64,000 bases of DNA from Variovorax paradoxus (GTDB taxonomy: Bacteria > Pseudomonadota > Gammaproteobacteria > Burkholderiales > Burkholderiaceae_C), in NCBI RefSeq assembly GCF_009498455.1, contig NZ_CP045644.1:5583001-5647000 (forward strand), written 5' to 3'. The notes below the pieces were generated by a model. That model was not told the origin of the DNA. It did not search any database and was given only the letters and a program-made list of their open reading frames with translations. Both the position numbers and the translations under genes were made by a program. Shown here piece by piece: positions 12,354 to 27,793 of this stretch. Numbering within the stretch: the stretch's first letter is position 1; each line of letters starts with the position of its first letter.

Positions 12354-13364
12354 TCAGCCGCTGTGTCGTGCGGCGCGTGCCCACGCGGCCTTCAGTGCCT
12401 GCTGGCTGGCCGGCGGCAGCACGCCCAGGCGCAGGTGCCCTGGCAGGCCGAAGGAAGTGCAGTCGCGCAGCTTGATGCCCTCGGCGCGCAGCGCGGCAGC
12501 GCGAGGCGGATACGGCGCGTCGGGCCGTGCGCCGAAGAAGTTGGCGTCGCCGGGCTGCACCTCCCAACCGAGCGATTCGCACACGGAGCGCTGCCGCGCC
12601 TTCCAGTCACGCAGGATGTCGAGGCTGCGCGCTAACCAGCCTTGCGCTTCGTCGGTGGCCCAGGTCGTGAGCAGCGCCACGCCGTGCGTGCCCAGCGGCC
12701 ACGACGGCGCAAGGCGTTCGAGCCGCTCCAGCAACGGGCCGGCCACGTCGAGGTTCGCGGGCGCGATCGCATAGGCGGCGCGGATACCGGTGAGGCCCAT
12801 GGCCTTGTTCGGTGTCCACAGCTGCCAGACGCGGTCGCGCTGTGCGTCGTCGTGCGAAGGCCGGCCTTCGAGGCGCAGCGGTTCGTAGGCCATGTCGAGC
12901 ACGCAGACCGCATCGCTCGCGGCATGCTGCGCGATGTCGGGCTGCGGCTGGCCTAACGGGCTCGACGGTTCGCAGCACCAACGCAGCGCGGCACCGTCGG
13001 CCTCTTCGGGTGCGCGCCACACGTCAAGGCCCCAGGCCTGGGCGGCGCGTTCGTAGTCGCCGTAGCTGTGCGCGGGCAGCCAGACATCTCCACCGCCACG
13101 TTGCGCAACGGCGGCGCTGATGCGGTGGATGAATTCGCTCGCGCTCGCGGCGATCGCGATGCGCTCCACGGCCACGCCGTGGAAATCGGCAAGCGCGGTG
13201 CGCAACGCGGTGTAGCGCGGATCGGGATAGTGCGCCGCGTCGGCCTCGCGCAATGCCGCCAGCACGGCGGGACACGAGCCCACCGCGTTGCCGTTGGTCG
13301 AGAAGTCGTGCGGCGCGGCGCCCGTCTCGTCGGGGCCGCCGTGCACCATGGCTTGATTCGTCAT
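12354..13364 (-). CDS. cobC: Threonine-phosphate decarboxylase-type PLP enzyme for cobalamin aminopropanol arm
   Basis: 336-residue fold-type I aminotransferase-like enzyme, named CobC in aerobic bacteria and CobD in Salmonella. It supplies (R)-1-amino-2-propanol phosphate by decarboxylating threonine phosphate. Visible features are the FSTNGNAVG substrate segment (21-29), YPDPRYTALR near 46, the PLP-ring Asp in VLDMAYEPL (Asp157), and the PLP lysine in TPNKAMGLTGIR (Lys187). The start ATG overlaps the cbiB stop (ATGA), matching the shared pathway, as CbiB joins the product to cobyric acid. Longer upstream frames are shadows within cbiB. The name cobC here is the Pseudomonas usage, not alpha-ribazole phosphatase. 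Confidence 0.9.
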   Translation of the reverse strand: MTNQAMVHGGPDETGAAPHDFSTNGNAVGSCPAVLAALREADAAHYPDPRYTALRTALADFHGVAVERIAIAASASEFIHRISAAVAQRGGGDVWLPAHSYGDYERAAQAWGLDVWRAPEEADGAALRWCCEPSSPLGQPQPDIAQHAASDAVCVLDMAYEPLRLEGRPSHDDAQRDRVWQLWTPNKAMGLTGIRAAYAIAPANLDVAGPLLERLERLAPSWPLGTHGVALLTTWATDEAQGWLARSLDILRDWKARQRSVCESLGWEVQPGDANFFGARPDAPYPPRAAALRAEGIKLRDCTSFGLPGHLRLGVLPPASQQALKAAWARAARHSG

Positions 13365-14350
13365 GCCCACCTCGCCAGCAGCGGCGACAGCATCGCCAGC
13401 GAAGCAATCACCGCCAGCCCCCACGCCACCCGTTCGCCGAGCTGCGCGGTGCGCGCGGTGTCGGCCGACGTGGCGGCACGCCCTTCCCCGTTCAACACAT
13501 AGACGCCCGGCTTCGCCAGCCGCACGCCCAGCAGCAGCGCCATCGCACCCATCGGCCAGCCGCTGTTGGGCGACGGCGTACGGCGCGCCTCGCGGGCCAC
13601 GCCGCGTGGCCAACGGCCGGCCGCGAGTGCCAGCAGCAGCACGGTGAGGCGCGCGGGCAGCCACGAGAGCACGTCGTCGGCGCGTGCGGCCCACTTGCCG
13701 AACCAGGTCCAGTCGCGACCGCCGCGTTCGCCGCGGTAGCCCCACATGGCGTCGGCGGTGTTGGCGAAGCGGTAGAGCGCCGCGCCCGGCAGGCCGAACA
13801 GCACGAACCAGAACACGGGCGCCACCAGCGAGTCGTTGAGGTTCTCGGCCAGCGATTCGATGGCGCTTTCGCGCACCTCGCGCTCGCTCAGCGTCGAGAC
13901 ATCGCGGCTCACGAGGCGTGCGAGCCGTGCACGGCCTGCGTCGAGCGATTCGCCCAGCGCGGTCTCGACCGCCAGCACCTCGTCGCGCAGCATGCGCCAC
14001 GCGAAGAGCGGCTTGAACGCGAGCCCAAGCACCACGGCCATGGCCCAGACTGGTAGCCATTGCATCCCCAAGCTCTGCACGGCCGACGCGACGGCGAACG
14101 CAGCCATCGCGCCCACGCACCAGCCGAGCGCGCCCATCGCAAAGCCCGGCAGGTCACGCGGCTTCGCGTCGGCGGCACGCGGCGCGAGGCGGCTGCCGAT
14201 CCAGTCCAGGTAGCGGCCCATCCACACCACGGGATGCAGCGGCGCGGGCGGTTCGCCGAGCCAGCGGTCGACGGCCAGTGCCAGCCACAGGGCGGCGACC
14301 AACGCGAGGGCGAAGACGGTGAAGGGATCGAGCGCGGGCATGGAAGGCAT
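13361..14350 (-). CDS. cbiB: Adenosylcobinamide-phosphate synthase
   Basis: Integral membrane enzyme (CbiB in Salmonella, CobD in Pseudomonas) joining adenosylcobyric acid to the aminopropanol phosphate arm. 329 residues with several hydrophobic helices. Family motifs are RWLGEPPAPLHPVVWMGR near 29, RDVSTLSEREVRESAIESLAEN split around 150-170, and FANTADAMWGYRG near 195. It follows cobN by nine bases and overlaps cobC, all on the minus strand, so it is an internal operon gene. The ATG at 14350 (MPSMPALDP) was used; an internal Met three residues later is equally possible. Confidence 0.93.
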   Translation of the reverse strand: MPSMPALDPFTVFALALVAALWLALAVDRWLGEPPAPLHPVVWMGRYLDWIGSRLAPRAADAKPRDLPGFAMGALGWCVGAMAAFAVASAVQSLGMQWLPVWAMAVVLGLAFKPLFAWRMLRDEVLAVETALGESLDAGRARLARLVSRDVSTLSEREVRESAIESLAENLNDSLVAPVFWFVLFGLPGAALYRFANTADAMWGYRGERGGRDWTWFGKWAARADDVLSWLPARLTVLLLALAAGRWPRGVAREARRTPSPNSGWPMGAMALLLGVRLAKPGVYVLNGEGRAATSADTARTAQLGERVAWGLAVIASLAMLSPLLARWA

Positions 14351-14359
14351 TTTCGTGAA

Positions 14360-17300
14360 TCAGGCGGCGGGCACGGCCCGGCCACGCCGCCATTGCACCA
14401 GCGCGCCGACGGCCAGCAGCAAGGCGGCGCCGAATGCGGCGAGCAGGCGCGGCAGCGCGGCGGACGGCGGCGGGGGCGAGGGGGTGTCGGTGATGGGCTT
14501 CAGCTGGAGGCCGGTCACGGGCTGTGCTAGGTCTGGCGTGGTGGGCGATTCGGGCGCAGGTGTCGCTGCTTCGACGCGTGCGATGGGCGACGTGACAACA
14601 ACCGGCGCAGGTGCAGTCACAGGCGAAGGCACCAACGCAGCCTGCGCGAACCGCTGCACCGCCTCGTTCCGCTCCCGCAGCCCCGTGGCGCGCACCGCCT
14701 CCGTGTAGGCCTGCGCCAGCTCGCGCCGCGTCGTGGCATCGGGCTTCCAGTAGTTCAGGCGCACGGCATCGAGCATGCGTTCCAGCGTCTGCGCGAAGGC
14801 GGCGCGGTTCTCGCGCTCCAGCCACTGGCGCGTGCCGAGCTTGTAGGTGTCGCGCACATAGACCTCGTGCAGCGACTGCCAATGGTCCGCGCGCACGGCC
14901 GCAGGCGCGGTCGCCTGCCAGCCCCAGAGGAACTGCGCGGTCTTGAGCACCTGCAGCGCGCCGCTGTAGCCCTCGGCCTTCTGCGCCTCGATCCACTGGG
15001 GATGCAGGTAGCGCGTCTGCATCTCGCGCGCGATGGCGCCGGCGGCGGTGTCGGTGCGCACGGCCGCGCCGTCGCGCAGGTTCTGCACGTACAGCGCCGG
15101 GTCCTTGCCCGTGAGGTGGCGCACGGCGAGCGCAATGCCGCCCAGGTACTGGAACGGGTCGTCGTTGGTCAGCACGCCGTAGAGGTTGGAGGTGCGCGCC
15201 ATCAGCGCGGCATCGACCTGCGCGAGGTTGCCCGCGAAGGCGCCCGCGCGCGTCATGCCGTCGAGGCCGCGCCCGTAGGCGTGGCCCATGCGGTCCATGT
15301 AGAGCCCGGCCATCTGCGCGTCGCCGCCGCCGCGCTGCTGGCCCTTCCAGAGTTCGGTGGCGAGCACCGCTTCTTCGAGCCCGGCACCGTAGCTGCCCTG
15401 CTCGTTCGAGAACACGCGCGCGGTAGACCAGCGCCGCGCCTCGGCCGCCGTCGCACCCTCGGCACGCAGCGTGCGCGCCATCGCTTCGCTGTGCTGCGCG
15501 ACGGCGTTGCCGGGCTCGTCGAGCGCGGCCACCTGCTGCACGGCTTCGTCGAGCCAGCGCATCACGTGCGGGAACTGGTCGCGGTACGAACCGGTGACGC
15601 TGATCAGCACATCCATGCGCGGCCGTTTCAGCACCGCGGCCGGCACGATCTCGATGCCGACCATGCGTCCGGCTTCGTCCCAGCGCGGCTTCACGCCGAG
15701 TGCATGGAAGGCCTGGCTCTCGGTCACGCCCTGGTGGCGCGAGGCCTCGCCGGCCCAGAGCGTGAAGGCGATCTTTTGCGGCGGCCGGCCGCCGTGGGTG
15801 CGGGCGTGCGCAGCGATCCAGTCGTCCATCGCGGCGACGCCGGTGTCCCAGGCGGCGCGCGTGGGCACACGGCTGGGATCGAAGCCGTAGAGGTTGCGGC
15901 CGGTCGGCAAGCTGTCGGGGTCGCGCACCGGGTCGCCGCCGTAGCGGGATTTCAGGTAGCGGCCGTCGAGCGCGGTGAGCAGGCCTTCGATTTCCTCGTT
16001 GTGAGCCAGCACCGTGTCGAGCGCGCGAGCCCGTGCGGCCAAGGTGCGCAAGGGCTCGGCGTCGGCGGTGTCATGGCCCGCCAACACCGCTTCCAGCCAC
16101 CGCGCAGGCTTCGACGCTGCAATGCCCTGCGCATCGGTGAGGAACATCTCGTCGAGGTCTTCGCCCATCGCCTGCGCCACGGGCTTGCCGAGGATCTGCA
16201 GGATGGTCTGGCGCCGCCGCTGCGCATCAGGCGCCTCGCCGAAGGTCGCCAGGCCCAGCGGCTGTGCGGTCTGCGCCAGCTCGTCGAGGTACGGATGCAG
16301 CACGGCGATGAAGCCGGCGAAATCGGCGCGGATGCGCGCGGGCGTCCATTGCAGGTCACGGTCGTAGTGCTGGGCGACGAAGTCGGCGGTGAGACGCCGT
16401 TCCATCGCCGTCTTCACCGCGCCGGGCGACAGCGTTTCCCAGTCGTGCAGGCGGTCGTGCATTTCGCGCACGCCGGGGCGGAAGCCCGCGGGCGTGAACA
16501 TGGGTGTCGAATGGCTCACCATCGTCGCGCGACCGCGGCGCTTCGCGGTGGTCGCCTCGCCGAGGTTGTCCATGATGTACGGATAGACGTTGGGCACGTC
16601 GCCCAGCGCGAGCAGCGGATCGTCCTGCACCGAGAGCCCGCGCTCCTTGCCCGCCGACCACTCGACCGTGCCGTGCGTGCCCACGTGCACGAGCGCATCG
16701 GCACCGAAGCGGCTGCGCAGCCAGAGGTAGGTCGCGAGGTAGCCGTGGCTCAGCGGCACGGCCGCGCGGTGGTACACCTGCTGCGCCTTGTCGGCCACCT
16801 GCGTGCCGGGCTCGAAGCGCGGCGGCTGGCGCAGCACGACCACCTGGCCGAACTGCACGCGCGGCACCACGAAGGCCGGTGCGCCGGCCACGGGCCGCAG
16901 CATGGCCGAGGATTCGGGCGGGCCCCAGTAGGCTTCGATGCGGCGTTGCGTCTCAGAAGGCAGCGCGCGGAACCACGCGAGGTATTGCGACAGCGGCAGC
17001 GTGTCGGCCAGCCCCTGGTCGAGCAGCGGCTGAAGCGCGTCGCCGCCCTGCGCCGTCGGGTAGTAGGCCTTCATCGTGGCCTGCACCTGCGCGATGACCG
17101 CGTCCGCGCCCGGCGCCTCGGTGCGGTAGCTGGCCGCCTGCATCGCGGACAGCATCCGGTCGACGCTGCGCGGCACGTTGAGGAACGACGCACCGAAGTT
17201 GGCCTCGCCCGGCGGGTAGTTGTAGACCAGCATCGCCACGCGGCGCTCGGCGGCGGGCGTGCGCCGCAGGCGCAGCAGCGCGGCGGCCTTGTCGACCACG

Positions 17301-18349
17301 GCATCGAGCTGCGCGGGCAACGGCTGCAGGCTGCCGGTGACGGCGTCGCGTGCCGTCACGAGCATCGGGTCGGTCATGCCCGCGAGTTCACTCGGGCTGT
17401 AGTAGGCCGCGATGTCGGTCTGCGCGAGGCCGTCCTTGCTGCGCGCCCATTGCGAAGCGTCCATGGCCAGCGACGGCAGCGTCTGCAGCACGGGCACGCC
17501 GATGCGTTCGAGCTCGGCCTTGCGCTCGTTCGGGCTGAACACCAGCGCGGCGTTGACGAGGAGATCGGCCACGCGACGCTCGCCCTCGCCGGCGTGCGTC
17601 ATGCGGAAGAACAGGTCCTTCTGCTGGCGCGGGCCGTAGAAGGCATAGGCGCGCAGGCCGCGTTGCGCGAGCGTGCCGATCAGCCGGTCGAGCCAGTCGG
17701 TGTCGTCGCCAGTCAGCGTGGCGCTGTTGACCGCGATGGCGACGGTGCCCTGCCCGCCCGGCAACGCCTCGACGGCCGCGATGCTGCTTTCGACGCGTGG
17801 CCAGTCGGGGTGATAGAAGCCGGCGAGTGGCAACGGCACGGGGTCGGGCAGCCCAGCCGCATCGCCGACGCGCGCCATCGCCTGCACCGAGGCTTTCAGA
17901 TTGGCCTCACCCGAAAAACGCCAGTAGGCACGCAAGCGCTGCGCCCAAGCCGCATCCACGCCGCGCTCGGCCGCGAGCGGCGGCACCTCAGGCGGCTTCT
18001 GGCCTTTCGCCATGAGCGCGAACTCACCGATCTGCACATAAGGAACGGCGCTGCGCGCGATGACGTCGCCGAAGCGCGCCGCCGCCGACTGGGCGACGCT
18101 GAGGTGCGGCGCATCGATGACGAGAAGGCGCGCACCGTCAAGCGCGGCGGCGAGCGCATCGGGTGTGTCCTGCGCGGCCGACACTACCTGCAGCGGCACG
18201 CCGGCCGTGTGCGCTGCCGTCTGCAGCCGCACGACGCGCGCAGGCGACACCAGCGCCGTGCTCAATACCACCACGTGAGACTCGGCCGCCATCGCAGGCT
18301 GCGCCATCAGGCACAAAAGCCAGAGCCAGAAAACGAAAAGCCGCGTCAC
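14360..18349 (-). CDS. cobN: Exported, membrane-anchored CobN-like chelatase large subunit
   Basis: 1329-residue CobN/BchH-family protein. CobN inserts cobalt into hydrogenobyrinate a,c-diamide with the ATPase subunits CobS and CobT; related HmuS-type proteins act on haem. The GTG start overlaps the stop of the upstream DUF2149 gene (GTGA). The N-terminus is a signal sequence (RLFVFWLWLLCLMAQPAMA), and the C-terminus has a hydrophobic helix (LLAAFGAALLLAVGALVQW) followed by an Arg-rich tail. The bulk should therefore lie outside the cytoplasm. Family motifs such as HVGTHGTVEW and NDDPFQYLGG are intact. The neighbours encode ExbB-like and ExbD-like proteins instead of CobS/CobT, which suggests a proton-motive-force-driven periplasmic chelatase or dechelatase. 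The metal and direction are unknown. Confidence 0.88.
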   Translation of the reverse strand: MTRLFVFWLWLLCLMAQPAMAAESHVVVLSTALVSPARVVRLQTAAHTAGVPLQVVSAAQDTPDALAAALDGARLLVIDAPHLSVAQSAAARFGDVIARSAVPYVQIGEFALMAKGQKPPEVPPLAAERGVDAAWAQRLRAYWRFSGEANLKASVQAMARVGDAAGLPDPVPLPLAGFYHPDWPRVESSIAAVEALPGGQGTVAIAVNSATLTGDDTDWLDRLIGTLAQRGLRAYAFYGPRQQKDLFFRMTHAGEGERRVADLLVNAALVFSPNERKAELERIGVPVLQTLPSLAMDASQWARSKDGLAQTDIAAYYSPSELAGMTDPMLVTARDAVTGSLQPLPAQLDAVVDKAAALLRLRRTPAAERRVAMLVYNYPPGEANFGASFLNVPRSVDRMLSAMQAASYRTEAPGADAVIAQVQATMKAYYPTAQGGDALQPLLDQGLADTLPLSQYLAWFRALPSETQRRIEAYWGPPESSAMLRPVAGAPAFVVPRVQFGQVVVLRQPPRFEPGTQVADKAQQVYHRAAVPLSHGYLATYLWLRSRFGADALVHVGTHGTVEWSAGKERGLSVQDDPLLALGDVPNVYPYIMDNLGEATTAKRRGRATMVSHSTPMFTPAGFRPGVREMHDRLHDWETLSPGAVKTAMERRLTADFVAQHYDRDLQWTPARIRADFAGFIAVLHPYLDELAQTAQPLGLATFGEAPDAQRRRQTILQILGKPVAQAMGEDLDEMFLTDAQGIAASKPARWLEAVLAGHDTADAEPLRTLAARARALDTVLAHNEEIEGLLTALDGRYLKSRYGGDPVRDPDSLPTGRNLYGFDPSRVPTRAAWDTGVAAMDDWIAAHARTHGGRPPQKIAFTLWAGEASRHQGVTESQAFHALGVKPRWDEAGRMVGIEIVPAAVLKRPRMDVLISVTGSYRDQFPHVMRWLDEAVQQVAALDEPGNAVAQHSEAMARTLRAEGATAAEARRWSTARVFSNEQGSYGAGLEEAVLATELWKGQQRGGGDAQMAGLYMDRMGHAYGRGLDGMTRAGAFAGNLAQVDAALMARTSNLYGVLTNDDPFQYLGGIALAVRHLTGKDPALYVQNLRDGAAVRTDTAAGAIAREMQTRYLHPQWIEAQKAEGYSGALQVLKTAQFLWGWQATAPAAVRADHWQSLHEVYVRDTYKLGTRQWLERENRAAFAQTLERMLDAVRLNYWKPDATTRRELAQAYTEAVRATGLRERNEAVQRFAQAALVPSPVTAPAPVVVTSPIARVEAATPAPESPTTPDLAQPVTGLQLKPITDTPSPPPPSAALPRLLAAFGAALLLAVGALVQWRRGRAVPAA

Positions 18350-18699
18350 TTCCCGCCCGACGCCGGCACCGCGTCCGCCGGCACGTAGATCATCGTGCCG
18401 TCCTTCAGGCGCCAGGCGGTGCCCGCCTTTTCGCCGTCGCCCTGCCCCGTCGCGCCGCTGGCCTTGAAGCGCGTGACCTTCTGGCCTTCGCGCGTGATGA
18501 TCTCCATGTCGGGCTGGCCCTCGTGGCGGATGACCGTCACCTTGTCCTGCGAGAACGGGTTCACCGGGTTGTTGATGACCGCGATCATCAGCATGCCGAT
18601 GACGACCATGAAGACGTCGATCAGGTTGATGGTCGAGAGCACCGGGTCGTCGTCGTCGCTGTCCAGGCTGCTCAAGATCGAGAACTGCCTGCGGCTCAT
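18346..18699 (-). CDS. DUF2149 protein with an ExbD-like membrane helix
   Basis: 117-residue protein with one membrane helix at about residues 24-42. The helix reads NLIDVFMVVIGMLM and carries Asp28 where ExbD/TolR/MotB-type proteins hold their proton-binding Asp (ExbD-type pattern: IDV then hydrophobic, ending in M). The C-terminal 75 residues are soluble and presumably periplasmic. Both ends overlap neighbours by 4 bases: ATGA with the ExbB-like gene and GTGA with cobN, so the three proteins are made together. I call it DUF2149 from memory of families next to CobN-like proteins. The ExbD resemblance is seen in the sequence; the role as stator or proton path is inferred. Confidence 0.85.
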   Translation of the reverse strand: MSRRQFSILSSLDSDDDDPVLSTINLIDVFMVVIGMLMIAVINNPVNPFSQDKVTVIRHEGQPDMEIITREGQKVTRFKASGATGQGDGEKAGTAWRLKDGTMIYVPADAVPASGGK

Positions 18700-19169
18700 G
18701 ACAACCGGTCCCGCGCATCGAGCAGCATCACCAGCTCGCGCATGAGCCAGCGGCGGCGCACCGTGTAGACCACGAAGGTGATCGACGCCGAAGCCAGCGC
18801 CACGATCACGGCCGCGAACGCGGGCGCCAGGCTCTGCGCCACGCCTTGCGATTCACCCGAGGCCACAGCCACGAGCGCCGGGCCCATGGGGATCATGGTG
18901 GCGATCAGCCCGAGCATCGGCGCCACGCGGCTGCACAGGCGCACGCCTTCGAGCTGCTTGAGCACGACCAGCTCCATCTGCTCCTGGCTGGCCTGCGCGT
19001 GGCGTTGCAGCACCAGCGCGCGCGACGGGTCGCGGCGACGCTGCCACCCCTCGATGCCGAAGGCGCCGAGGCAGTACACCGCATAGACGAAAGACAGCAG
19101 CACGCCGAGCGTCACGGGCCAGAGGAACAGGCGCGCAAGCTCGAAGAGAACGGTGTCGAAGGCCAGCAT
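18696..19169 (-). CDS. MotA/TolQ/ExbB-type proton channel protein
   Basis: 157 residues with three predicted membrane helices: about 8-33 near the N-terminus, about 84-100 (RVAPMLGLIATMIPMGPAL, the ExbB TM2 pattern with a conserved Gly and Thr) and about 110-135 (APAFAAVIVALASASITFV, the TM3 pattern). A cytoplasmic stretch rich in Arg and Gln joins the first two. It is shorter than ExbB itself, typical of variants encoded beside CobN-like and DUF2149 proteins. It begins TGATG-coupled to the bluB stop and ends overlapping the DUF2149 start. It likely forms the channel that uses the proton gradient to drive the exported CobN-like protein; that is inference. Confidence 0.85.
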   Translation of the reverse strand: MLAFDTVLFELARLFLWPVTLGVLLSFVYAVYCLGAFGIEGWQRRRDPSRALVLQRHAQASQEQMELVVLKQLEGVRLCSRVAPMLGLIATMIPMGPALVAVASGESQGVAQSLAPAFAAVIVALASASITFVVYTVRRRWLMRELVMLLDARDRLS

Positions 19170-19867
19170 CAGGTGGGCTCCACGGAAGAAGATGAAGTGG
19201 AAGAAGGATCGAACAGGTCCGACGGCCGGCCCCAGCTTTCGTCGAACACCAGCGACGCAAGCGGAGCGCGCTTGGCCCAGCGTTCGCGCTGCAGCATCGG
19301 CTCTTCGTAGAACGCATGCACCGGGCCCAAGCACAGCACGGCGATCGGCTCGGCGCCTTCGGGCAGACCGAGCAGCACGCTCAGCTCGGCAGGCTCGAAC
19401 AGCGACACCCATCCCATGCCCAGCCCTTCGGCGCGCGCCGCGAGCCAGAGGTTCTGGATGGCGCAGGAGGCCGAAGCCAGGTCCATCTGCGGCAAGGTGC
19501 GGCGGCCGAACACATGCTGCTCGCGGCCGTCAGCGAGCGTCACCACCAGCAGCTCGGCCGCGTCGAGCACGCCCTGCACCTTGAGGCGCATGAATTCGTC
19601 TTCGCGCTGGCCGAGCGCGCGGGCGGTGCGCACGCGTTCGCGCTCGACCACCTCGTGCAGCTGCCGGCGCAGCCCTTCGCCGCGCACGCGGATGAAGCGC
19701 CACGGCTGCATGAAGCCGACGCTGGGCGCGTGGTGCGCGGCGTCGAGCAGGCGGCGCAGCACGTCGGGCGCCACCTCACCCCCTGCAAAGTGGCGCATGT
19801 CGCGCCGCTCGTGGATGGCGCGGTACACCGCCTTGGCCTCGTCGGCCGCGAACGCATGCGCCACCAT
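19169..19867 (-). CDS. bluB: 5,6-dimethylbenzimidazole synthase
   Basis: Flavin-destroying enzyme that converts reduced FMN and oxygen into 5,6-dimethylbenzimidazole, the lower base of B12. 232 residues of nitroreductase fold. Features are the N-terminal RAIHERRDMRHF motif near 17-28, HAPSVGFMQPWRFI near 46-60, and ASASCAIQNLWLAARAEGLG near 130-150, where BluB retains the lid and Asp/Ser features absent from ordinary nitroreductases. It is six bases from cobO and overlaps the ExbB-like start. Its presence means aerobic lower-ligand synthesis, feeding CobT at the left end of the window. Confidence 0.92.
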   Translation of the reverse strand: MVAHAFAADEAKAVYRAIHERRDMRHFAGGEVAPDVLRRLLDAAHHAPSVGFMQPWRFIRVRGEGLRRQLHEVVERERVRTARALGQREDEFMRLKVQGVLDAAELLVVTLADGREQHVFGRRTLPQMDLASASCAIQNLWLAARAEGLGMGWVSLFEPAELSVLLGLPEGAEPIAVLCLGPVHAFYEEPMLQRERWAKRAPLASLVFDESWGRPSDLFDPSSTSSSSVEPT

Positions 19868-19872
19868 CGGGG

Positions 19873-20442
19873 TCAGTCCTCGATGCCGCGCTGCGCCGGG
19901 ATGCCGGCCTTGAACGCGTGCTTGACCATCTGCATCTCGGTGACCGTGTCGGCCAGCTCGATGATCTCGGGCGGGCAGCGCCGGCCGGTGAGCACAACGT
20001 GCACATGCTTCGGGCGCGCGCGCAGGGTTTCGAGCACGCCTTCGAGCGGCAGCCAGCCGTAGATCAGCGGGTAGGTGATCTCGTCGAGCACCACGAGAAA
20101 GAAGTCGCCCGACAGGATCGCGGCCTTGGCCTTTTCCCAGCCGTCGCGCGCGAGCTGGCCCGAGCGGTCGAGGTCCTGGCTTTTCCAGCTGAAGCCGTCA
20201 CCGAGGCCTTCGATGGGCACGCCGATCTGCTCGAACATGCGGTGCTCGCCGAAGCGCGCCGAAGGCACCTTCATGAACTGGTAGATCTTCACGGCCTTGC
20301 CGCGGCCGTGTGCGCGCAGCGCGAGACCGAATGCTGCGGTGCTCTTGCCCTTGCCGTCGCCGGTGTTGACGATGACGATGCCGCGGCGTTCGCCTTCGGG
20401 CTTCTCGTAGGGCTTTTCGCTGGGAGGGGTTTCTATTTGCAT
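19873..20442 (-). CDS. cobO: Corrinoid adenosyltransferase, CobA/CobO type
   Basis: Transfers the 5'-deoxyadenosyl group from ATP to the cobalt of cob(I)yrinate a,c-diamide and other corrinoids. 189 residues from ATG 20442, with P-loop GDGKGKST (28-35), KIYQFMK near 63, [10 protein letters not shown] near 122, and the C-terminal [13 protein letters not shown] common to the family. A longer frame reaches into the palindromic repeats at 20500-20720 and was rejected. It follows btuD after a 313-base gap, so an internal promoter is possible; it is followed closely by bluB. Confidence 0.93.
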
Positions 20443-20755: not shown

Positions 20756-21538
20756 TCATAGCGGCAATGCGATCCATTGGTCTGCCACGCGGTGCACGCG
20801 AATCCGATGGTCGAACACCTGCTCGAGCGCCGCGTGCGTCACGGGGTCGGAGCAAGCACCGTGATGCGTCACCCGCCCCCGATTCATCACCACCAGTTCG
20901 TCCGCGGCCAGCGCCATCGGCAATTCATGCAACACGCTGACCACGGTGCGGCCTTGCGCGACCAACTCGCGCGCCGTCTTCATCCAGTCCGCCTGATGCG
21001 GCGGATCGAGATTGGCCAGCGGCTCATCCATCAGCAACAACTCGGCCTCGACCGCCAGCGCACGCGCCAGCAGCACGCGCTGCCGTTCGCCCCCCGACAA
21101 CTGCCCCAACGGACGATCGCGCCAATCCCAGGCCTGGGTGCTGCGCAGTGCGCGTTCCACGGCATCGCGATCCGCTTCGCTAGGTGCCGCGAGCCAGCGT
21201 TGGTGCGGCAGGCGTCCGAGCATGGCCACGTCGTAGACCATCAGGTCGTCGGCGCTGCCCTCGCCCGTGCCGCTCTGGCCCAGCCAGGACAAGCGCCGTG
21301 CGCGCACGCGGGCCGGCACGGCAGCCTGTGTCTCGCCGAAAAGCCGGACCTCGCCGCGGTGTGCGAGCAAACCGGCCAGCGCCTTCAACAACGTCGACTT
21401 GCCGGCCCCGTTCGGTCCGACGATGCTGGTCCAGCGGCCGGCCGCAAGTGACAAGTCGATGTTGTGCAGCACCTCGACCGAGCCGAGCGTGGCGCTGAGG
21501 CCGCGCGCTTCGAGCGCGGCGGATGGGGTGCGGCTCAC
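20756..21538 (-). CDS. btuD: Vitamin B12 ABC transporter ATP-binding protein
   Basis: 260-residue ABC ATPase from a GTG start whose GTGA overlaps the btuC stop. An ATG at 21576 would add 13 residues but overlaps btuC further. Walker A is GPNGAGKST, the signature is LSGGERQRVLLARAL, Walker B is LLLMDEPLANLD, and the switch His is in LHELP. It powers BtuC for corrinoid import across the inner membrane. FecE-type siderophore ATPases look similar, but linkage to btuF, btuB and the cob genes decides the call. It is the last gene before the REP-like gap. Confidence 0.9.
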   Translation of the reverse strand: MSRTPSAALEARGLSATLGSVEVLHNIDLSLAAGRWTSIVGPNGAGKSTLLKALAGLLAHRGEVRLFGETQAAVPARVRARRLSWLGQSGTGEGSADDLMVYDVAMLGRLPHQRWLAAPSEADRDAVERALRSTQAWDWRDRPLGQLSGGERQRVLLARALAVEAELLLMDEPLANLDPPHQADWMKTARELVAQGRTVVSVLHELPMALAADELVVMNRGRVTHHGACSDPVTHAALEQVFDHRIRVHRVADQWIALPL

Positions 21539-22545
21539 GGTCCACCGCCCTTCGCGCCGCGTCGGTGCATCAGCCATAACAGGTAGCTGCCGCCGAGCAC
21601 CGCCGTGAGCACGCCCACCGGCAGTTCCTGCGGCGCGATCAGCCAGCGCGCGAGCAGGTCGGCCGCCATCAGCAGCAGCCCGCCCATCAACGCCGACAGC
21701 ACGATCAGCCGCGCATGCGTGGTCTTGACCACCGAGCGCACCAGGTGCGGTGCGGCCAGGCCGACGAAAGCGATCAGGCCGGTCTGCGCGACGGCGGCGC
21801 CGGTCGCCAGCGCCAGCACCGCCACCAGCGCGGCGCGCATGCCGCCGAGTGGCAACCCGAGGCTGCGCGCGGTGGCCTCGCCGAGCGCGAGCCCGTCGAG
21901 CACCGGCGCGAGCGCCCAGGCCAGCAGCAGGCAGGCCGCACCGACGGCCGCCATCACGGCGCAGGCGGTCCAGCCGACCAGGCCCGTGCTGCCAAGCACG
22001 AAGCCCTGCAACGCCTGAAGAATGTCGGCCGAGGCGATGGTGACGAGGTCTTTGGCGGCGCCCAGCACCACGCCGACGATCACGCCTGCGAGCAGCAGCC
22101 GCAGGGTCTGTTGCACGCCGCGCGCCAGCGTCAGCGTGAGCAGCACCGCGGCCACGGCGCCAACGAAAGCCGCGCCTGTCAGGCCGATGCGCATCACCCA
22201 TTGCGTGCTGGTGACGGAGCCGCCGAACAGCATCAGTGCCAACGCCACGCCGAGCGACGCACCCGAAGCACTGCCCAGCAGGTACGGATCGGCCAGCGGA
22301 TTGCGGAACAGCCCCTGCGCCACCGCGCCGGCAAGCCCGAGCAGCGCGCCCGCGAGCCAGGCGCCGAGGGTGCGCGGCAGGCGGATGTCCCAGACGATCT
22401 GCAGCGCCACCGGGTCGTGCCGCGCGGACAGCAGGCTCTGGAAACCGGTGCTGCCGATGCCCAGGCCGAAGAGCAGCAACGCCGCGCCCAGCAGCAGCAA
22501 GCCGGCACCGAGCAGCAGCACGCGACGCAGATGGGCGGAATGCAT
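21535..22545 (-). CDS. btuC: Vitamin B12 ABC transporter permease
   Basis: 336-residue FecCD/BtuC-type permease with about ten hydrophobic helices. Visible motifs are DIRLPRTLGAWLAGALLGLAG (residues near 50-70), FRNPLADPYLLGSASGASLG, and the coupling loop GLIAFVGLAAPHLVR near 265. It forms the inner-membrane path for corrinoids with BtuD and BtuF. The ATG at 22545 was taken; a GTG at 22554 that overlaps the btuF stop (GTGA) would add three residues and matches the coupling style of this operon. Substrate assignment rests on context. Confidence 0.9.
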   Translation of the reverse strand: MHSAHLRRVLLLGAGLLLLGAALLLFGLGIGSTGFQSLLSARHDPVALQIVWDIRLPRTLGAWLAGALLGLAGAVAQGLFRNPLADPYLLGSASGASLGVALALMLFGGSVTSTQWVMRIGLTGAAFVGAVAAVLLTLTLARGVQQTLRLLLAGVIVGVVLGAAKDLVTIASADILQALQGFVLGSTGLVGWTACAVMAAVGAACLLLAWALAPVLDGLALGEATARSLGLPLGGMRAALVAVLALATGAAVAQTGLIAFVGLAAPHLVRSVVKTTHARLIVLSALMGGLLLMAADLLARWLIAPQELPVGVLTAVLGGSYLLWLMHRRGAKGGGP

Positions 22546-22550
22546 GCCGC

Positions 22551-23432
22551 TCACCGCCCCTTGTCCGACAGGCACTGCGCCATCAGGCGCGCGGCCTCGT
22601 CCATGCGCGGGCCGGGGCGCACGACCACGTCGGTCTGTTCGGCGTCGAAGCGGCACACGCGCCCTTCGCGCACCGCGCGGATGCCGCCCCAGCCGGGACG
22701 CTGCTCCAGCCCCATCGCGCTGCGCACGCTGACCATGATGAGGTCGGGGTTCGCACGCACGACGAACTCGGGGTTGAGCTTGGGAAAGGGGCCGAGCGAC
22801 GCGGGCACGATGTTCTTCACGCCGAGCCGCGCCAGCGTTTCGCCGATGAAGGACGAATCGCCCGCCGCGTAAGGGCCGGTGTTGACTTCGAAGTACACGC
22901 GCAGGCCCTTGGCGCTGGCAGGCAGCGACTGCGCTGCGGCCGACACGGCTGCATCGATGGCGCGCCAGACGGCGGGTGCCTCGTGCGTGTCGAGCACCTG
23001 GTCGAGCGCGTTCAATACGCGGCGCACGTCGGCGTGGCTCTTGGGTTCGAGCACGATCACCTTCAGGCCCAGCGCCTCGAGCCGCTGCGTCACGCGTGAC
23101 GACTTGGCGAGCAGCACCACGTCGGGCTTGAGCGCGACGATGGCTTCGACGTTCGGATCGATCCCGCCGCCGAGCTGCGGCAGCGCGCGCACCTGCGCAG
23201 GTGAGTTGGAATAGCGGTCGACGCCGATCAGCCGGTCGCAGGCGCCGAGCGCGCAGACGCCTTCGGTGAGCGATGGCAGCAGCGAGACGATGCGCTGCGG
23301 CGGCTGCGCCAGATGCACGGTGACGCCGCGCTCGTCGAGCACATCGATGGCCTGCGCAGCCTGCGCGCACACCGCCAACGCAAGGCCGAGCGAGAGCGCG
23401 CGCAGCCAAGTCTTCATGGATTCGAAGCTCAT
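22551..23432 (-). CDS. btuF: Periplasmic corrinoid-binding protein
   Basis: 293-residue class III solute-binding protein. It has a signal peptide at about 6-27 (ALSLGLALAVCAQAAQA), then RIVSLLPSLTEGVCALGACD near 47-66, typical of BtuF. The LKPDVVLL strand and backbone helix follow. It captures cobalamin or cobinamide in the periplasm and hands it to BtuCD. The start MSFESMK was chosen because its ATG overlaps the cobU stop (ATGA); MKTWLR at 23417 is an alternative. If the exported CobN-like protein acts on corrinoids, BtuF or BtuB would be its likely source of substrate. Confidence 0.9.
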   Translation of the reverse strand: MSFESMKTWLRALSLGLALAVCAQAAQAIDVLDERGVTVHLAQPPQRIVSLLPSLTEGVCALGACDRLIGVDRYSNSPAQVRALPQLGGGIDPNVEAIVALKPDVVLLAKSSRVTQRLEALGLKVIVLEPKSHADVRRVLNALDQVLDTHEAPAVWRAIDAAVSAAAQSLPASAKGLRVYFEVNTGPYAAGDSSFIGETLARLGVKNIVPASLGPFPKLNPEFVVRANPDLIMVSVRSAMGLEQRPGWGGIRAVREGRVCRFDAEQTDVVVRPGPRMDEAARLMAQCLSDKGR

Positions 23433-24019
23433 GCGGCGGGCGCCTTCAGCGTCAGCGGCAGGCCGGCGACCATCAGCGTCGCGCGGTGGCAGGCGGCGGC
23501 GACGTCCTGGTTCAAGCGGCCGAGCACGTCGACGAAGGCACGGGTCTCGCGGCCCAGCGGGATCACGCCCAGGCCGATCTCGTTGCCGACCAGCACCACG
23601 GGGCCGCGCGCTTCGCGCAGCGCGATCAGCAGCAGCGTGGCGTGCGCCGAGGGCGTGCGCGTGACCATGGCGGCACCTTCGGTGCGCAGCGGCATCAGCA
23701 GGTTGGTGAGCCACAGCGTGAGGCAATCGACCACCACGAGCGTGTCGGGCGCGCTCTGCGTGACGATGGCACGCGCCAGCTCGATCGGCTCCTCGAGCGT
23801 CTGCAGGCCGGGTACGCGCTCGGCACGGTCGCTCTGGTGGCGCGCGATGCGATCGCGCATCTCGTCGTCGTGGGCCTGCGCGGTGGCGATCAGCACCGCG
23901 CGGCGCGACTTGGGCGATGTCGGCGATTGGGCCAGCCAATCGGCGGCGCGCTGTTCGGCACGGCGCGACTTGCCGCTTTTCTGGCCGCCGAGGATGAATT
24001 CGTGCTCAATGAGGGGCAT
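23429..24019 (-). CDS. cobU: Adenosylcobinamide kinase / GTP:adenosylcobinamide-phosphate guanylyltransferase
   Basis: Bifunctional enzyme that phosphorylates adenosylcobinamide and attaches GMP to give AdoCbi-GDP. 196 residues. The P-loop GGQKSGKS is at 11-18, AQAHDDEMRDRIARHQSDR near 48-66 holds the guanylylated His region, VVVDCLTLWLTNLL is near 110, and GNEIGLGVIP near 145. ATG 24019 overlaps cobB by 14 bases and the stop overlaps btuF. This enzyme is used both in de novo synthesis and in cobinamide salvage, in keeping with the mixed uptake and assembly operon. Confidence 0.93.
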   Translation of the reverse strand: MPLIEHEFILGGQKSGKSRRAEQRAADWLAQSPTSPKSRRAVLIATAQAHDDEMRDRIARHQSDRAERVPGLQTLEEPIELARAIVTQSAPDTLVVVDCLTLWLTNLLMPLRTEGAAMVTRTPSAHATLLLIALREARGPVVLVGNEIGLGVIPLGRETRAFVDVLGRLNQDVAAACHRATLMVAGLPLTLKAPAA

Positions 24020-25406
24020 CGGAAGACGCCTGTGCGGCGTGGCTGTCGAGTTCGAGGGGCATGGCGCCGAAGAGCCGCGCGGTCGCCTCCGGGCTGGACG
24101 CGAACCACGCATGGAAGTAGCTCGCGCGCACGGGGCCGTGCACGTACAGCGCCTCGCCGCCGCGCGTGCCGACGGTGCGCGCGGCAGGCGCGAGCGGCGT
24201 CTCGCAGCGCGAGTAGTGGAAGGTGTGGCCGCGCAAGGCATGCACGCCGAGGTCGAGCTGCTGCGGGCCGAGGCCGGCCAGCCGCTTCTGCATGACCGCC
24301 CTTCCCGGCAGCACGCCCCAGAGGCGGTGCACGTCGTGCGGTTCGGCGTCGTCGCGCGTGGCGAGTTCGTCGAACAGCGCCATCATGCCGCCGCACTCGG
24401 CCCAGATGGGCTTGCCGGCGGTCACATGGTTCGCGAGCGAGAGCCGCAACCGGTCGCTGGCCGACAGCACTGCCGCGTGCAGCTCGGGATAGCCGCCGGG
24501 GAACCAGGCCGCGTCGCAAGGCGGCAGCGGCTCATCCGCCAACGGCGAGAAGAACGCGAGCCGCGCGCCGAGGGCTTCGAGCACGTCGAGGTTGGCCGGG
24601 TAGATGAAGGAGAACGCCGCGTCGCGCGCGATGGCGATGGTGTGACCGGCCAGCAGCGGCGCGATGGGCGCTGCGACTTCGTGTTCGAAGCGCACCTGCG
24701 GCAGCTGATCGGGCGTGCGTTGGCCGAGCGGCGTGGTCGCGAGCACGTCGGCCGCAGCATCGAGGCGCACCATGGCGTCAGCCCCCAGTTCGGCCGCGCC
24801 GACCAGCCCCAGGTGGCGTTCAGGCAGCGCGAAGTCGGCGCTGCGCGGCAAGGCGCCGAGCCAGTCGCCGGGCTCGCGCAACGCGTCTTTCAGCATGTCG
24901 GCATGGCGCTCGCTGGCCACGCGATTGGCGAGCACGCCGGCCCAGGGCAGGCCCGGCTGGAAGTTCTGCAGGCCGTACGCCAGTGCACCGAAAGTGCCGG
25001 TCATGGCCTGCGCGTCGATCACGGCCAGCACCGGCAGGCCCAGGCGCGCGGCCAGTTCGGCCGCGCTGGGCGTGCCGTCGAACAGGCCCATCACGCCTTC
25101 GACGATGACCAGGTCGGCCTCGCACGCGGCGGCATGCAGGCGCGCGCGGCAGTCGGCTTCGCCGGTCATCCACAGGTCGAGCGAATGCACCGGCGCGCCG
25201 GTGGCCAGCGCGAGCCAGTGCGGATCGAGGAAGTCGGGCCCGCACTTGAAGGCCCGCACGCGGCGGCCCTGGCGCACGTGCAGCCGCGCGAGCGCGGCCG
25301 CGACGGTGGTCTTGCCCTGCCCGGAGGCCGGCGCGGCCACGAGCACCGCGGCGCAGGTGGCAGCGGCGCCAGGCGGGAAACGGCGGGTGTTTACTGCGGA
25401 GTCCAC
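24006..25406 (-). CDS. cobB: Cobyrinate (hydrogenobyrinate) a,c-diamide synthase
   Basis: Glutamine-dependent amidation of side chains a and c of the corrin ring. 466 residues, as in CobB/CbiA. The N-terminal ATP domain has P-loop APASGQGKT (25-33) and KCGPDFLDPHWL near 54-65, a strong family marker. IVEGVMGLFDG follows near 100. The C-terminal amidotransferase domain has its nucleophile in WAECGGMMALFDEL and a late His in a TFHYSR motif. It overlaps the btuB end by 16 bases. Corrin-ring-forming genes are absent from this window, so whether it serves full synthesis cannot be judged here. Confidence 0.93.
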   Translation of the reverse strand: MDSAVNTRRFPPGAAATCAAVLVAAPASGQGKTTVAAALARLHVRQGRRVRAFKCGPDFLDPHWLALATGAPVHSLDLWMTGEADCRARLHAAACEADLVIVEGVMGLFDGTPSAAELAARLGLPVLAVIDAQAMTGTFGALAYGLQNFQPGLPWAGVLANRVASERHADMLKDALREPGDWLGALPRSADFALPERHLGLVGAAELGADAMVRLDAAADVLATTPLGQRTPDQLPQVRFEHEVAAPIAPLLAGHTIAIARDAAFSFIYPANLDVLEALGARLAFFSPLADEPLPPCDAAWFPGGYPELHAAVLSASDRLRLSLANHVTAGKPIWAECGGMMALFDELATRDDAEPHDVHRLWGVLPGRAVMQKRLAGLGPQQLDLGVHALRGHTFHYSRCETPLAPAARTVGTRGGEALYVHGPVRASYFHAWFASSPEATARLFGAMPLELDSHAAQASSDAPH

Positions 25407-27349
25407 TTGAGTCCGACGTACGCGGTGCGGCCCCCGTTGGCGTAGAGCCGTGCGAACTGATAGTCCTTGTCGCCCACATTGTCCACGCGCGCCACGAGGT
25501 TCAGGTCGCGCGTGATCTGCGTGCTGGCCGACAGGTTGAGCAGCGTGTAGCCGCCGAGCTTGACGGTGTTGGCGGCGTCGTCGAAGCGCTTGCCCGAGCT
25601 CTGGATCTCGGCGCCCAGCGTCCAGCCGGCGATGCGCCAGTCGGCACCCAGCGTGCCGTGGGCCCGTGCGCGGCGTGCCAGCAGGTTGTCGGTGGCGAGG
25701 TCGCGCGGGTCCTGGTAGTCGAGCGAGGCACGCAGCGTGACGTCGCCGATGCGGTGACCGCCCGTGAGCGTCACGCCCTGGTAGCGTGCGCGCGCCGTGC
25801 TGGCGTAGCAGCCGAACGACGACTGGCAGCCCTTGGCGCTGCCGTCGAACACGATGAGGTTCTGCACCCGGTTGCGGTACAGCACGATGCCGGCCTGCGT
25901 GGCGCCGGCCGTGTACTGCAGGCCCAGCTCGACGTTGCGGCTCGACTCGGGTTGCAGGCTCGCCAGGCCGTATTCGCTGAAGCGCTGGTACAGCGTGGGC
26001 GCGCGGAACGCGGTGCCGGCCGACACGGTGGCGCGCAGGCTCGGCGTGATGGCGTAGCCGTAGGCGGCGCTGCCGGTGGTCTTGCCGCCGAACTCGCTGT
26101 CGTCGTCATGGCGCACGTGCAGCTGCAGCGAATGCGGGCCCTTCACGTAGCCGTAGCCCAGTGCGGCGGCGTTCTGCGAGCGGTCGCGCGAGAACAGCTT
26201 GGCCGAGGTGGTCGGCGCGTTCTCGAGGGCGTCTTCGCGGCGCTCGAGCGTGGCGGTCACGAGGTGCGCGCCGAAGCGGAATTCGTTCTGGAACAGGTAG
26301 CCGCGCAGGCGGGTTTCGGTGCGGTAGAACGACGGCTGGGTCTTGTAGACCGTCTGCGAATCGGTCACCTGCAGGCGGGTGCTGTAGATGTCGTTCCACT
26401 TGGCCGACCAGGTCAGGCCGGCGGTGCGCAGTTCGTTGGTCGACACATCGCCCCGGAAGGTGATCGGCAGCCTGGTGCGATAGCTCACCGACGGGTCGTA
26501 CGCCGCTTCAGTGTTGCTGGTGAGCAAGGTGGCGTCGAGGCGCTGGTCGGGCGTGATCTGGAAACCCAGCTTCAGGTTGCCCGAGGTGCTGCGGTAGCCG
26601 TCGCGGTCGGGGTTGGTGAAGCCGTCTTTCGACGGCGTGCGCTTGGCGATGGGCTGGATGTTGAAGCCCTTGCTTTCTTCATGCGCGACACCGAACGAGT
26701 AGTCGAGCAGGCCCGACTTGCCGCTCACGCCGCCCTCGATCTTGCGCAGGCCGTGGCTGCCGAAACCGATGCCGGCGTAGGGCGACACGCCCTCTTCGCC
26801 GCGCTTGGTGAAGAGCTGGATCACGCCGCCCACGGCGTCCGAGCCGTAGACCGCGGCGGCCGGGCCACGCAGCACTTCGATGCGGTCGATCTGCGACAGC
26901 GGAATGCCTTCCCACCCGGCGCCGCCGGTCGATTGCGAATCGATGCGCACGCCGTCCAGGTAGACCGCGGTGAAGCGCGATTCGGCGCCGCGGATGAACA
27001 CGCTGGTGGCGTTGCCCACGCCGCCGCTGCGCGAGATCTCCATGCCGGGCAGGCGCGCCAGCACGTCGGCCACGCCGGTCGCGCCGCTGCGCTCGATGGT
27101 CTTGCGGTCGACGATGGAGACATCGCCCACCAGGTCCGACAGCGCCTGCGGCGTGCGGTTGGCGGTGACGACGGTCTCGTCGAGCGTGGCAGATGTAGAT
27201 GCAGCAGCCACGGCTTGCGCTTGCGCAGCCAGCGGCACCAGGGCCAGGCCGCCGAAGGCCGAGGCCAGGGCGAGCGTCAGCGGCAGGCACGCGGGACGGC
27301 TGCGGCGCGCGCTGGCGCGGCCGCTGGAGAGGGAAACACAGGAAATCAT
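25391..27349 (-). CDS. btuB: TonB-dependent outer-membrane receptor for corrinoids
   Basis: 652-residue outer-membrane receptor. After a long signal region (cleavage near residue 46), the TonB box DETVVTA is seen near 54-60, followed by a plug domain with DVLARLPGMEISRSGG and RGAESRFTAVYLDGVRI, then a 22-strand barrel ending in aromatic WTPQ-type residues. It takes up B12 or cobinamide with energy from TonB, which is not encoded here. A cobalamin riboswitch lies upstream, which supports the substrate. ATG 27349 has a poor ribosome site, and a longer frame would run back through the riboswitch, so 27349 is preferred. It is the first gene of the cob-btu operon. Confidence 0.92.
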   Translation of the reverse strand: MISCVSLSSGRASARRSRPACLPLTLALASAFGGLALVPLAAQAQAVAAASTSATLDETVVTANRTPQALSDLVGDVSIVDRKTIERSGATGVADVLARLPGMEISRSGGVGNATSVFIRGAESRFTAVYLDGVRIDSQSTGGAGWEGIPLSQIDRIEVLRGPAAAVYGSDAVGGVIQLFTKRGEEGVSPYAGIGFGSHGLRKIEGGVSGKSGLLDYSFGVAHEESKGFNIQPIAKRTPSKDGFTNPDRDGYRSTSGNLKLGFQITPDQRLDATLLTSNTEAAYDPSVSYRTRLPITFRGDVSTNELRTAGLTWSAKWNDIYSTRLQVTDSQTVYKTQPSFYRTETRLRGYLFQNEFRFGAHLVTATLERREDALENAPTTSAKLFSRDRSQNAAALGYGYVKGPHSLQLHVRHDDDSEFGGKTTGSAAYGYAITPSLRATVSAGTAFRAPTLYQRFSEYGLASLQPESSRNVELGLQYTAGATQAGIVLYRNRVQNLIVFDGSAKGCQSSFGCYASTARARYQGVTLTGGHRIGDVTLRASLDYQDPRDLATDNLLARRARAHGTLGADWRIAGWTLGAEIQSSGKRFDDAANTVKLGGYTLLNLSASTQITRDLNLVARVDNVGDKDYQFARLYANGGRTAYVGLKWTPQ

Positions 27350-27424
27350 GGGGTGAACCGAACGAACTTCTATGCCCTGGCCGGCTTCCCCGCCGGCGCC
27401 ATGGGCGTCATGGCTGCCGATGCG

Positions 27425-27650
27425 GCAGCCGCCTTGTTGGCCGGTATCCGGGCTGGCAGATCGACCCTTTGCCGCCTTCCCAGGCGCCTGTTTCAGAGCG
27501 CCCAGTGGCTGGATGGAAAGGGGTGACGCCTTGCGGCGTCGTCTGCTTGACCGTTGCGGGGGCAGCGCAGGCGGCTTCGGCCCCGGGGGGCGTCCACTCC
27601 TGCTTCCCGTTGAACTGCGCCGTGCGAACCACGCCGCGAGCACCAACGGG
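27425..27650 (-). promoter_or_regulatory. Cobalamin (AdoCbl) riboswitch upstream of btuB
   Basis: Read on the minus strand, this interval contains the ordered landmarks of the cobalamin aptamer. They are AACGGGAA (27604-27611), GCCCCCGCAACGGT (27550-27563), CCACTGG (27502-27508), GGGAAGG (about 27475-27481) and GCCCGGATACCGGCC (27439-27453). It ends about 90 bases before the btuB start. In that linker a GC-rich hairpin (about 27382-27401) could affect translation. Binding of adenosylcobalamin would be expected to turn down btuB and the genes behind it. The rest of the 27350-27793 gap holds the upstream promoters for btuB and the plus-strand zapA unit. Exact ends are estimates. Confidence 0.92.
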
Positions 27651-27793
27651 CAGGATTTTAGGCCCACGGGGCGGCCACACCACACCGGGTTTGATCACCG
27701 GCGGCGCAGGCCCCAGAATCTCGGCCACGTCCGGCGCGCGCCCGCGCGGTGCGCCAGACCTTCCGAATTCCCGGGAAACTACAATCGCCAACC

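Follow-up and report, generated by a model that had tools for sequence, protein, structure and literature searches.

A 64,000-nucleotide stretch of the Variovorax paradoxus genome (contig NZ_CP045644.1 of assembly GCF_009498455.1, forward-strand positions 5,583,001 to 5,647,000; hereafter the window, to which coordinates refer) contains a vitamin B12 operon in which an exported CobN-like chelatase is encoded directly after an ExbB-type channel protein and a DUF2149 protein. Judged from its sequence and phylogeny, the chelatase is not a cobalt-inserting CobN and belongs to an exported branch that also holds the haem dechelatase HmuS and proteins of methanogens. The explanation favoured here, with somewhat less than even confidence, is that of a proton-driven periplasmic chelatase acting on corrinoids imported by BtuB and most likely metalating unfinished corrinoids before their import by BtuFCD.

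The exported chelatase and its partner genes

The three genes (the trio) lie on the minus strand:

14360..18349, minus strand: exported CobN-like chelatase of the HmuS/BtuS branch (GTG start, 1329 aa; PF02514, 961 bits)
18346..18699, minus strand: DUF2149 protein (117 aa; 88.7 bits against a cut-off of 27.1)
18696..19169, minus strand: ExbB/MotA-like channel protein (157 aa; Pfam MotA_ExbB, 30.5 bits against a cut-off of 22.9)

An earlier interpretation of the DNA letters (the sequence-only reading) had placed overlapping genes of these kinds in a B12 operon, and all three are confirmed there, with overlaps of 4 bases each at the exbB/duf2149 and duf2149/cobN junctions (ATGA and GTGA) and of 1 base between bluB and exbB. 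Type A loci, defined by the order exbB-duf2149-cobN in a B12 setting, number 21 in 21 genomes, window included; the 4-base exbB/duf2149 overlap recurs in 19 of them, and the duf2149/cobN overlap measures 4 bases in 16 and 11 bases in 3, the CobN frames of the other 2 being unreadable there. Overlaps within the trio are more frequent than chance would give.

The CobN-like protein begins with VTRLFVFWLWLLCLMAQPAMA|AES, a hydrophobic core with an AxA site, followed by a PF02514 match (residues 141-1207), a Pro-rich linker and a single C-terminal hydrophobic helix (about residues 1302-1320) before a final WRRGR. These features, taken from scripted hydropathy and the AxA site, bear out the N-terminal signal and the C-terminal helix with an Arg-rich end that had been proposed; the accompanying claim of a 1250-residue periplasmic body stands as to export and anchoring and not as to extent, since the PF02514 match stops at residue 1207 and gives way to the linker. 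Among type A proteins, 18 of 21 have a signal-like N-terminus and 20 of 21 a C-terminal helix. At three loci of the wider sample described below (L110 in genome G371; L083 and L109 in G526), cobN is split over two frames or has a short start, possibly through decay or sequencing errors.

Relatives were collected through DUF2149. In a sample of 369 genomes across the class, 20 have matches over the family cut-off (21 including a weaker one), as do 43 of 299 genomes of the window's family, the window's genome standing in both counts. Among the 69 loci retrieved, each of about 20 kb or up to the contig ends and the window's own included, one (L073, below the family cut-off) held an ordinary ExbD and was removed from the counts; ExbB is present in all of the remaining 68 and a CobN homologue in 66. 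Besides type A, these comprise type B, 23 loci ordered receptor-cobN-exbB-duf2149 at which none of the cob genes looked for is present; type G, 11 loci that belong to families of the class other than the window's, encode a longer CobN and a divergent DUF2149 and lie mostly among cob genes; and 13 loci outside these types.

The phylogeny, a quick tree of 58 rows (a subset of earlier alignment rows and 11 new ones), places all exported proteins in one clade (Shimodaira-Hasegawa-like approximate likelihood ratio test, SH-aLRT, 97), apart from cytosolic CobN (100) and ChlH/BchH (99). A topology forcing types A and G together was rejected (approximately unbiased test, p-AU 1.9e-8), the two types having been named by context beforehand and the constraint test picked after a FastTree run with low support for G (0.33); two or more separate branches therefore gained or retained the B12 link.

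The catalytic His of the superfamily is kept in the window protein as H559 and in 21/21 type A proteins. It corresponds to His-538, which HmuS requires along with its use of His-1209 and Glu-1212 (PMC12583661; papers are represented here and below by openly licensed titles, abstract openings and passages). The DHxxE motif of HmuS is DDxxQ in the window protein (D1064, Q1067), and its 1209/1212 pair is Asp/Gln in 21/21 type A and 23/23 type B proteins and in the 3 cytosolic CobN compared; the 1209 position is also Asp in 11/11 type G and 14/14 archaeal proteins. His occupies it in one ChlH, in two HmuS and in four relatives whose loci showed no cob gene. As a strict mark of haem users this His was rejected, because an Azospirillum protein carries it with no hmuY in the stretch shown. 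The Met-rich insertion of HmuS is missing from the window protein (34 residues against about 200 between aligned blocks), and the N-terminal part of HmuS, with the haem ligands Met-79 and His-254, gives no alignment with it. An HmuS-type protein (DHVYEFMGG) encoded with ExbB and DUF2149 also occurs in the window's own family (L096, genome G384) and groups with HmuS in the tree.

The window protein passes NCBIfam NF004644 (an equivalog named 'cobaltochelatase subunit CobN') and reaches 521 bits against TIGR02257, the model of cytosolic cobaltochelatase CobN, under its cut-off of 822. Automatic annotation through NF004644, which labels the protein as a cobaltochelatase of B12 synthesis, probably misnames it, and predictions of B12 producers that count this gene may be wrong.

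B12 setting and the rest of the genome

Cobalamin riboswitches, identified with Rfam as a scripted pattern search for the B12-box was too strict, are present in 19 of 21 type A loci. Of type G, 7 loci were tested and 6 have one; of the 23 type B loci, 11 were tested and none has. The two type A loci where none was found lie on contigs of 14.0 kb (L113) and 12.4 kb (L119, beginning inside cobB). The distance from riboswitch to exbB is about 130 bases at L120 and about 620 at L121, a type A locus consisting of riboswitch and trio, with no cob gene seen within the stretch. On the Comamonadaceae plasmid CP099607.1, the riboswitch (40.2 bits against 31.5) ends about 90 bases before exbB and is followed by exbB-duf2149-cobN with no other operon gene. 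This arrangement is the clearest indication of the trio being regulated by B12 as a unit in its own right, and it strengthens the link to B12 that had been proposed.

In the window, the riboswitch heads an operon in the order btuB, cobB, cobU, btuF, btuC, btuD, cobO, bluB, exbB, DUF2149, cobN, cobD, cobC, among whose named genes there is neither a tonB nor a metal permease (HmuT, DUF2162 or UreH-like). Apart from the trio, the features are:

27422..27662, minus strand: cobalamin riboswitch, operon head (60.6 bits against 31.5)
25391..27349, minus strand: btuB, outer-membrane B12 receptor (TIGR01779, 432.6 bits, below the cut-off of 599.7)
24006..25406, minus strand: cobB, cobyrinic/hydrogenobyrinic acid a,c-diamide synthase (NF002204, 410 bits against 254)
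23429..24019, minus strand: cobU, adenosylcobinamide kinase/guanylyltransferase (153.1 bits, cut-off 161)
22551..23432, minus strand: btuF-like binding protein (under the BtuF cut-off)
21535..22545, minus strand: btuC-like permease (best match BtuC, under its cut-off)
20756..21577, minus strand: btuD-like ATPase (best matches are other ATP-binding cassette (ABC) ATPases, all under cut-off)
19873..20442, minus strand: cobO, corrinoid adenosyltransferase (199.3 bits against 167.75)
19169..19867, minus strand: bluB, 5,6-dimethylbenzimidazole synthase (250.6 bits against 150)
13361..14350, minus strand: cobD/cbiB (220.2 bits against 165.9)
12354..13364, minus strand: cobC-like aminotransferase (best model 102.7 bits, below the cut-off of 290.55)
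683..2149, minus strand: cobQ, cobyric acid synthase, in the window and not in the operon (524.2 bits against 273)
3..686, minus strand: cobT, cut by the window edge (251.1 bits; the cut-off of 319.3 is for the whole protein)

The complete genome sequence (G000, one contig of 7,288,087 bases) gives no match to CbiC/CobH, a marker of corrin-ring synthesis, and nothing over cut-off for CobJ; CobQ and CobB are present. The organism therefore appears to finish the corrin ring and not to build it, while keeping two cobalt-chelatase-like proteins. The same pattern is seen across type A: a single one of the 21 genomes has CbiC, and it alone has CobJ over cut-off, leaving 20 with neither, CobQ exceeds its cut-off in all 21 and CobB is encoded at 19 of the 21 loci. 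In the family at large, 12 of 32 genomes with a PF02514 match above 1220 bits also have no CbiC match; two of those CobN proteins (L003 and L257) were checked against NCBIfam.

The genome-wide search for a second cobN that had been suggested found one, making two PF02514 genes in all. The second protein belongs to the true cobaltochelatase family (TIGR02257, 1545 bits against 822), has no C-terminal helix and is, from its sequence, cytosolic; it is encoded in a CbiM-CobW-CobN-ChlI-ChlD cluster (L003, G000:C1:4441-4448 kb) whose ChlI and ChlD matches fall under the curated cut-offs of their models. Matches to the chelatase CobT model are all sub-threshold (246 bits, cut-off 759), CobS not having been searched for. 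The statement that no ChlI/ChlD is seen thus holds for the window and not for the genome.

These genes bear on the possibility that the window protein is a plain cytosolic cobaltochelatase using ChlI/ChlD encoded elsewhere in the genome. ChlI/ChlD do exist, together with CobW, but they adjoin the second CobN, which scores 1545 bits with TIGR02257 where the window protein scores 521, and the window protein has export features. Three of the 21 type A genomes, each from the window's genus, have a cytosolic cobaltochelatase (about 1270 bits), which is not found in the other 18; second PF02514 genes are not cobaltochelatases in every type A genome having one, three being BchH. In the remaining 15, many of them drafts of 93-100% completeness, the exported CobN (type A, or also B) is the sole PF02514 protein and ChlI/ChlD matches are weak (below 50 bits with TIGR02442). 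This possibility, which the sequence-only reading had itself named as the case that would overturn its proposal, is exceedingly improbable and can be regarded as already refuted, unless the N-terminus proves to be no export signal.

Proposed proton power and direction of metal transfer

In the favoured explanation, CobN would be exported and anchored by its C-terminal helix, with its chelatase body in the periplasm, and would form one inner-membrane machine with ExbB and DUF2149. Since the periplasm has no ATP, ExbB and DUF2149 would act as a proton-driven stator, replacing the ChlI/ChlD or CobS/CobT motor, which uses ATP. Corrinoids would enter via BtuB and the machine would work on their metal centre, the likeliest step being insertion of cobalt into unfinished corrinoids that lack a metal or carry the wrong one, after which the product would be imported by BtuFCD and completed by CobB, CobO, CobQ, CobD, CobU and BluB. 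We infer complex formation, proton coupling, the corrinoid substrate and the direction of metal transfer alike.

The DUF2149 protein consists of one helix bearing Asp28, at what we take to be the position of the proton-carrying Asp of ExbD, and a small part that, by analogy with ExbD, would lie in the periplasm. Asp28 is kept in 57/57 aligned sequences and in the 11/11 divergent type G sequences read by eye, that is in 68/68 bacterial proteins, and the position is also Asp in 20 archaeal DUF2149 proteins read by eye; the protein of Runella has Glu. Thr91 in helix 2 of ExbB is likewise kept in 68/68 bacterial sequences. Sequence searches of the PDB returned no ExbD match for DUF2149 and no match for ExbB, viral contigs held no DUF2149 relatives, and a single-sequence structure model of DUF2149 gave a helix followed by strands (mean predicted local distance difference test 61.8), too weak for a fold search.

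The trio extends to Archaea. In 31 methanogen genomes searched, DUF2149 was found in 20, at 26 places, of which 20 were retrieved; ExbB adjoins DUF2149 in 20/20 of these and CobN lies within 10 kb in 13/20. All 12 uncut methanogen CobN proteins are hydrophobic over an N-terminal segment and have a C-terminal helix, the thirteenth being cut by the stretch. At two loci without CobN (L242 and L247, about 5.9-10.3 kb), ExbB-DUF2149 directly follows a large exported protein that looks S-layer-like by eye, and the pair may power something else there.

This distribution bears on the alternative that the ExbB-DUF2149 pair simply energises BtuB in the usual TonB manner, with CobN as an unrelated passenger or working alone. 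The DUF2149 helix is ExbD-like and the DUF2149 model weakly detects a real ExbD (L073), btuB lies within the operon, and HmuU/HmuV, the corresponding partners of HmuS, are read as TonB accessories in the passages at hand (PMC10100974, PMC12583661) or left open in papers on HmuS. However, if the pair were purely a BtuB energiser, an outer membrane should be required, and ExbB-DUF2149 stands beside an exported CobN in 13/20 loci of methanogens, which have none. Moreover, plasmid pSZ77 of Trichlorobacter lovleyi carries, behind tandem cobalamin riboswitches, receptor-DUF2162-exbB-duf2149-cobN followed by a separate exbB-exbD-tonB, CP099607.1 shows the trio with no TonB receptor in 24 kb, and no tonB is among the named genes of the window operon. 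The pair is therefore unlikely to be the TonB energiser of BtuB, and this account as a whole is quite improbable. The conserved DUF2149 acid and ExbB Thr, the methanogen trio and the separate tonB cluster of pSZ77 all lend indirect support to the proton-powered machine of the sequence-only reading, at the strength of an inference.

As to direction, we lean towards insertion rather than removal, because ring markers are absent while CobB, CobQ and the BtuFCD importer are kept, and because the inner-membrane partner of type A is this corrinoid importer and not a metal permease, whereas haem systems are paired with metal uptake (FeoB). Removal would make the protein a periplasmic dechelatase like HmuS, stripping a wrong metal from a tetrapyrrole or corrinoid, or cobalt from analogues, by proton power or a reductant. 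This is unlikely, although the characterised relative HmuS takes iron from haem (PMC12583661), hmu operons share the partner genes, and the same gene kinds recur in the Zur-regulated PA1922-PA1925 genes and in a nickel-hydrogenase maturation cluster, both resembling metal supply. The window operon has a corrinoid importer in place of a metal permease among its named genes, cobalt removal would ruin the vitamin that the operon serves to save, and the DHxxE motif and Met-rich insertion of HmuS are replaced and missing, respectively. The protein might also handle corrinoids without metal chemistry, binding them in the periplasm and using proton power to aid their release to BtuF, as its BtuB and BtuFCD neighbours would allow and as the haem held by HmuS at a head/neck site apart from the catalytic site might suggest (PMC12583661, in part); such a role is improbable given that the superfamily catalytic His and the CobN-type D/Q pair are each kept in 21/21 type A proteins.

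Several points weigh against a proton-driven corrinoid chelatase. Canonical ExbB has a second Thr ring in helix 3; this Thr is absent from the window ExbB (Val/Ala) and present in the HmuU type. ExbB-DUF2149 occurs without a nearby CobN in 7/20 archaeal loci (one on a cut contig) and, in the window's class, at L101 (genome G420) and L108 (G422), whose genomes have no PF02514 gene at all. HmuS purified alone removes metal in an NADH-dependent manner, according to passages of PMC12583661. The trio or its homologues also accompany iron (hmu), zinc (PA1922-PA1925) and perhaps nickel genes, which look like metal release. Absent ring synthesis could not be upheld as a type A-specific trait (CbiC in 1/21 genomes): ring synthesis is found in only 52/299 genomes of the family, so its absence fits type A and is not specific to it. 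The statistical weight of the missing ring pathway is accordingly modest, and the weight lies in the retention, without that pathway, of a chelatase and two ring-amidating enzymes. Finally, metal-free corrinoids are not documented as a common nutrient in the literature found, as far as its titles, abstract openings and passages go.

A broader proposal, possible though doubtful, is that a class I chelatase driven by the proton motive force, with no AAA+ ATPase, inserts cobalt into metal-free corrin rings within the periplasm, in bacteria that are unable to make the ring and subsist on unfinished, metal-free corrinoids leaked by cobalt-starved producers, and that iron, zinc and perhaps nickel are handled by this module too when it is combined with different receptors and regulators. 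No proposal of a proton-driven chelatase or of such metal-free corrinoid salvage was seen in the literature searched, within the same limits. ExbB and DUF2149 may be the chelatase's own motor, which would be a new power source for a metal-tetrapyrrole reaction outside the cytoplasm, and the B12 variant points to a possible unrecognised diet of corrins that are complete as rings and not as vitamins.

Comparison with known systems

The window protein shares its PF02514 body and D/Q active-site pair with CobN-CobS-CobT and CobN-ChlI-ChlD, which unlike it are cytosolic, ATP-driven and in a separate clade (SH-aLRT 100). Desulfovibrio CbiK-P, which presumably has no ExbB/DUF2149, resembles it in location. 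It is a periplasmic cobaltochelatase, but of class II and of unrelated fold (PMC4063343, in part). The BtuS family of Rodionov 2003 had been put forward, according to a passage of PMC6460266, to join CobN and ChlH as a third type.

The haem-related parallel drawn by the sequence-only reading proved apt. In 2025, HmuS was established as a membrane-bound haem dechelatase that takes iron from haem (PMC12583661, in part), and in hmuYRSTUV the fifth gene encodes MotA/ExbB and the sixth DUF2149, according to the part of PMC10434189 at hand. Like the window genes, HmuS-HmuU-HmuV of Bacteroidota combines a membrane-anchored class I chelatase, which has a signal or anchor at its N-terminus and a helix at its C-terminus, with MotA/ExbB and DUF2149 partners, has a TonB-dependent receptor upstream and falls in the same exported clade (SH-aLRT 97). 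In contrast to hmu, the window has a B12 riboswitch and not iron control, no HmuY or HmuT, the order exbB-duf2149-cobN, DDxxQ for DHxxE, no Met-rich insertion, and a corrinoid importer and cob genes alongside.

Three other described systems share features with the window. PA1922-PA1925 of Pseudomonas aeruginosa (receptor-CobN-ExbB/D-DUF2149), compared by description only, has the same gene kinds in type B order and differs in being Zur-regulated with no cob genes named (PMC9431628, in part). Zur control was rejected for type B, as a search for the E. coli Zur-box core that allowed up to 3 mismatches gave no match in its loci, so the zinc link of P. aeruginosa is not carried over. In pSZ77 of Trichlorobacter (Geobacter) lovleyi, the trio stands behind tandem cobalamin riboswitches as in the window, and its describers noted no CobS/CobT and an unknown role (PMC3403914, in part); unlike the window, it includes a receptor, a DUF2162 permease and its own exbB-exbD-tonB, and the organism has ring-synthesis genes. 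A Hmu-like operon of Bacteroides fragilis likewise places a CobN-like chelatase under a B12 riboswitch, although it belongs to Bacteroidota, a role in cobalamin metabolism is only suggested, and the passages at hand show no link to missing ring synthesis (PMC10100974).

Further plasmid loci vary the setting. On pRUNSL01 of Runella slithyformis (L264, 4719-18977), exbB-DUF2149-cobN, a receptor and a UreH-like permease are flanked by hypABF and hypCDE, with a nickel hydrogenase downstream, and this module may serve nickel. An Azospirillum brasilense plasmid (L261, 5548-17506) carries cobN-exbB-DUF2149, after which come a cobalamin riboswitch (10387-10604), genes for an ABC importer and a receptor, and nikR, its CobN having His at the HmuS-1209 position; plasmid matches in Paracoccus and Pseudoalteromonas have no annotated gene at the match. 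A general proton-driven chelatase module with changing receptors is plausible, and it is also the main argument for the dechelatase alternative. The kind of protein is already known from HmuS, and what the present comparison adds is the B12 variant, together with its repeated origin and its setting in the genome.

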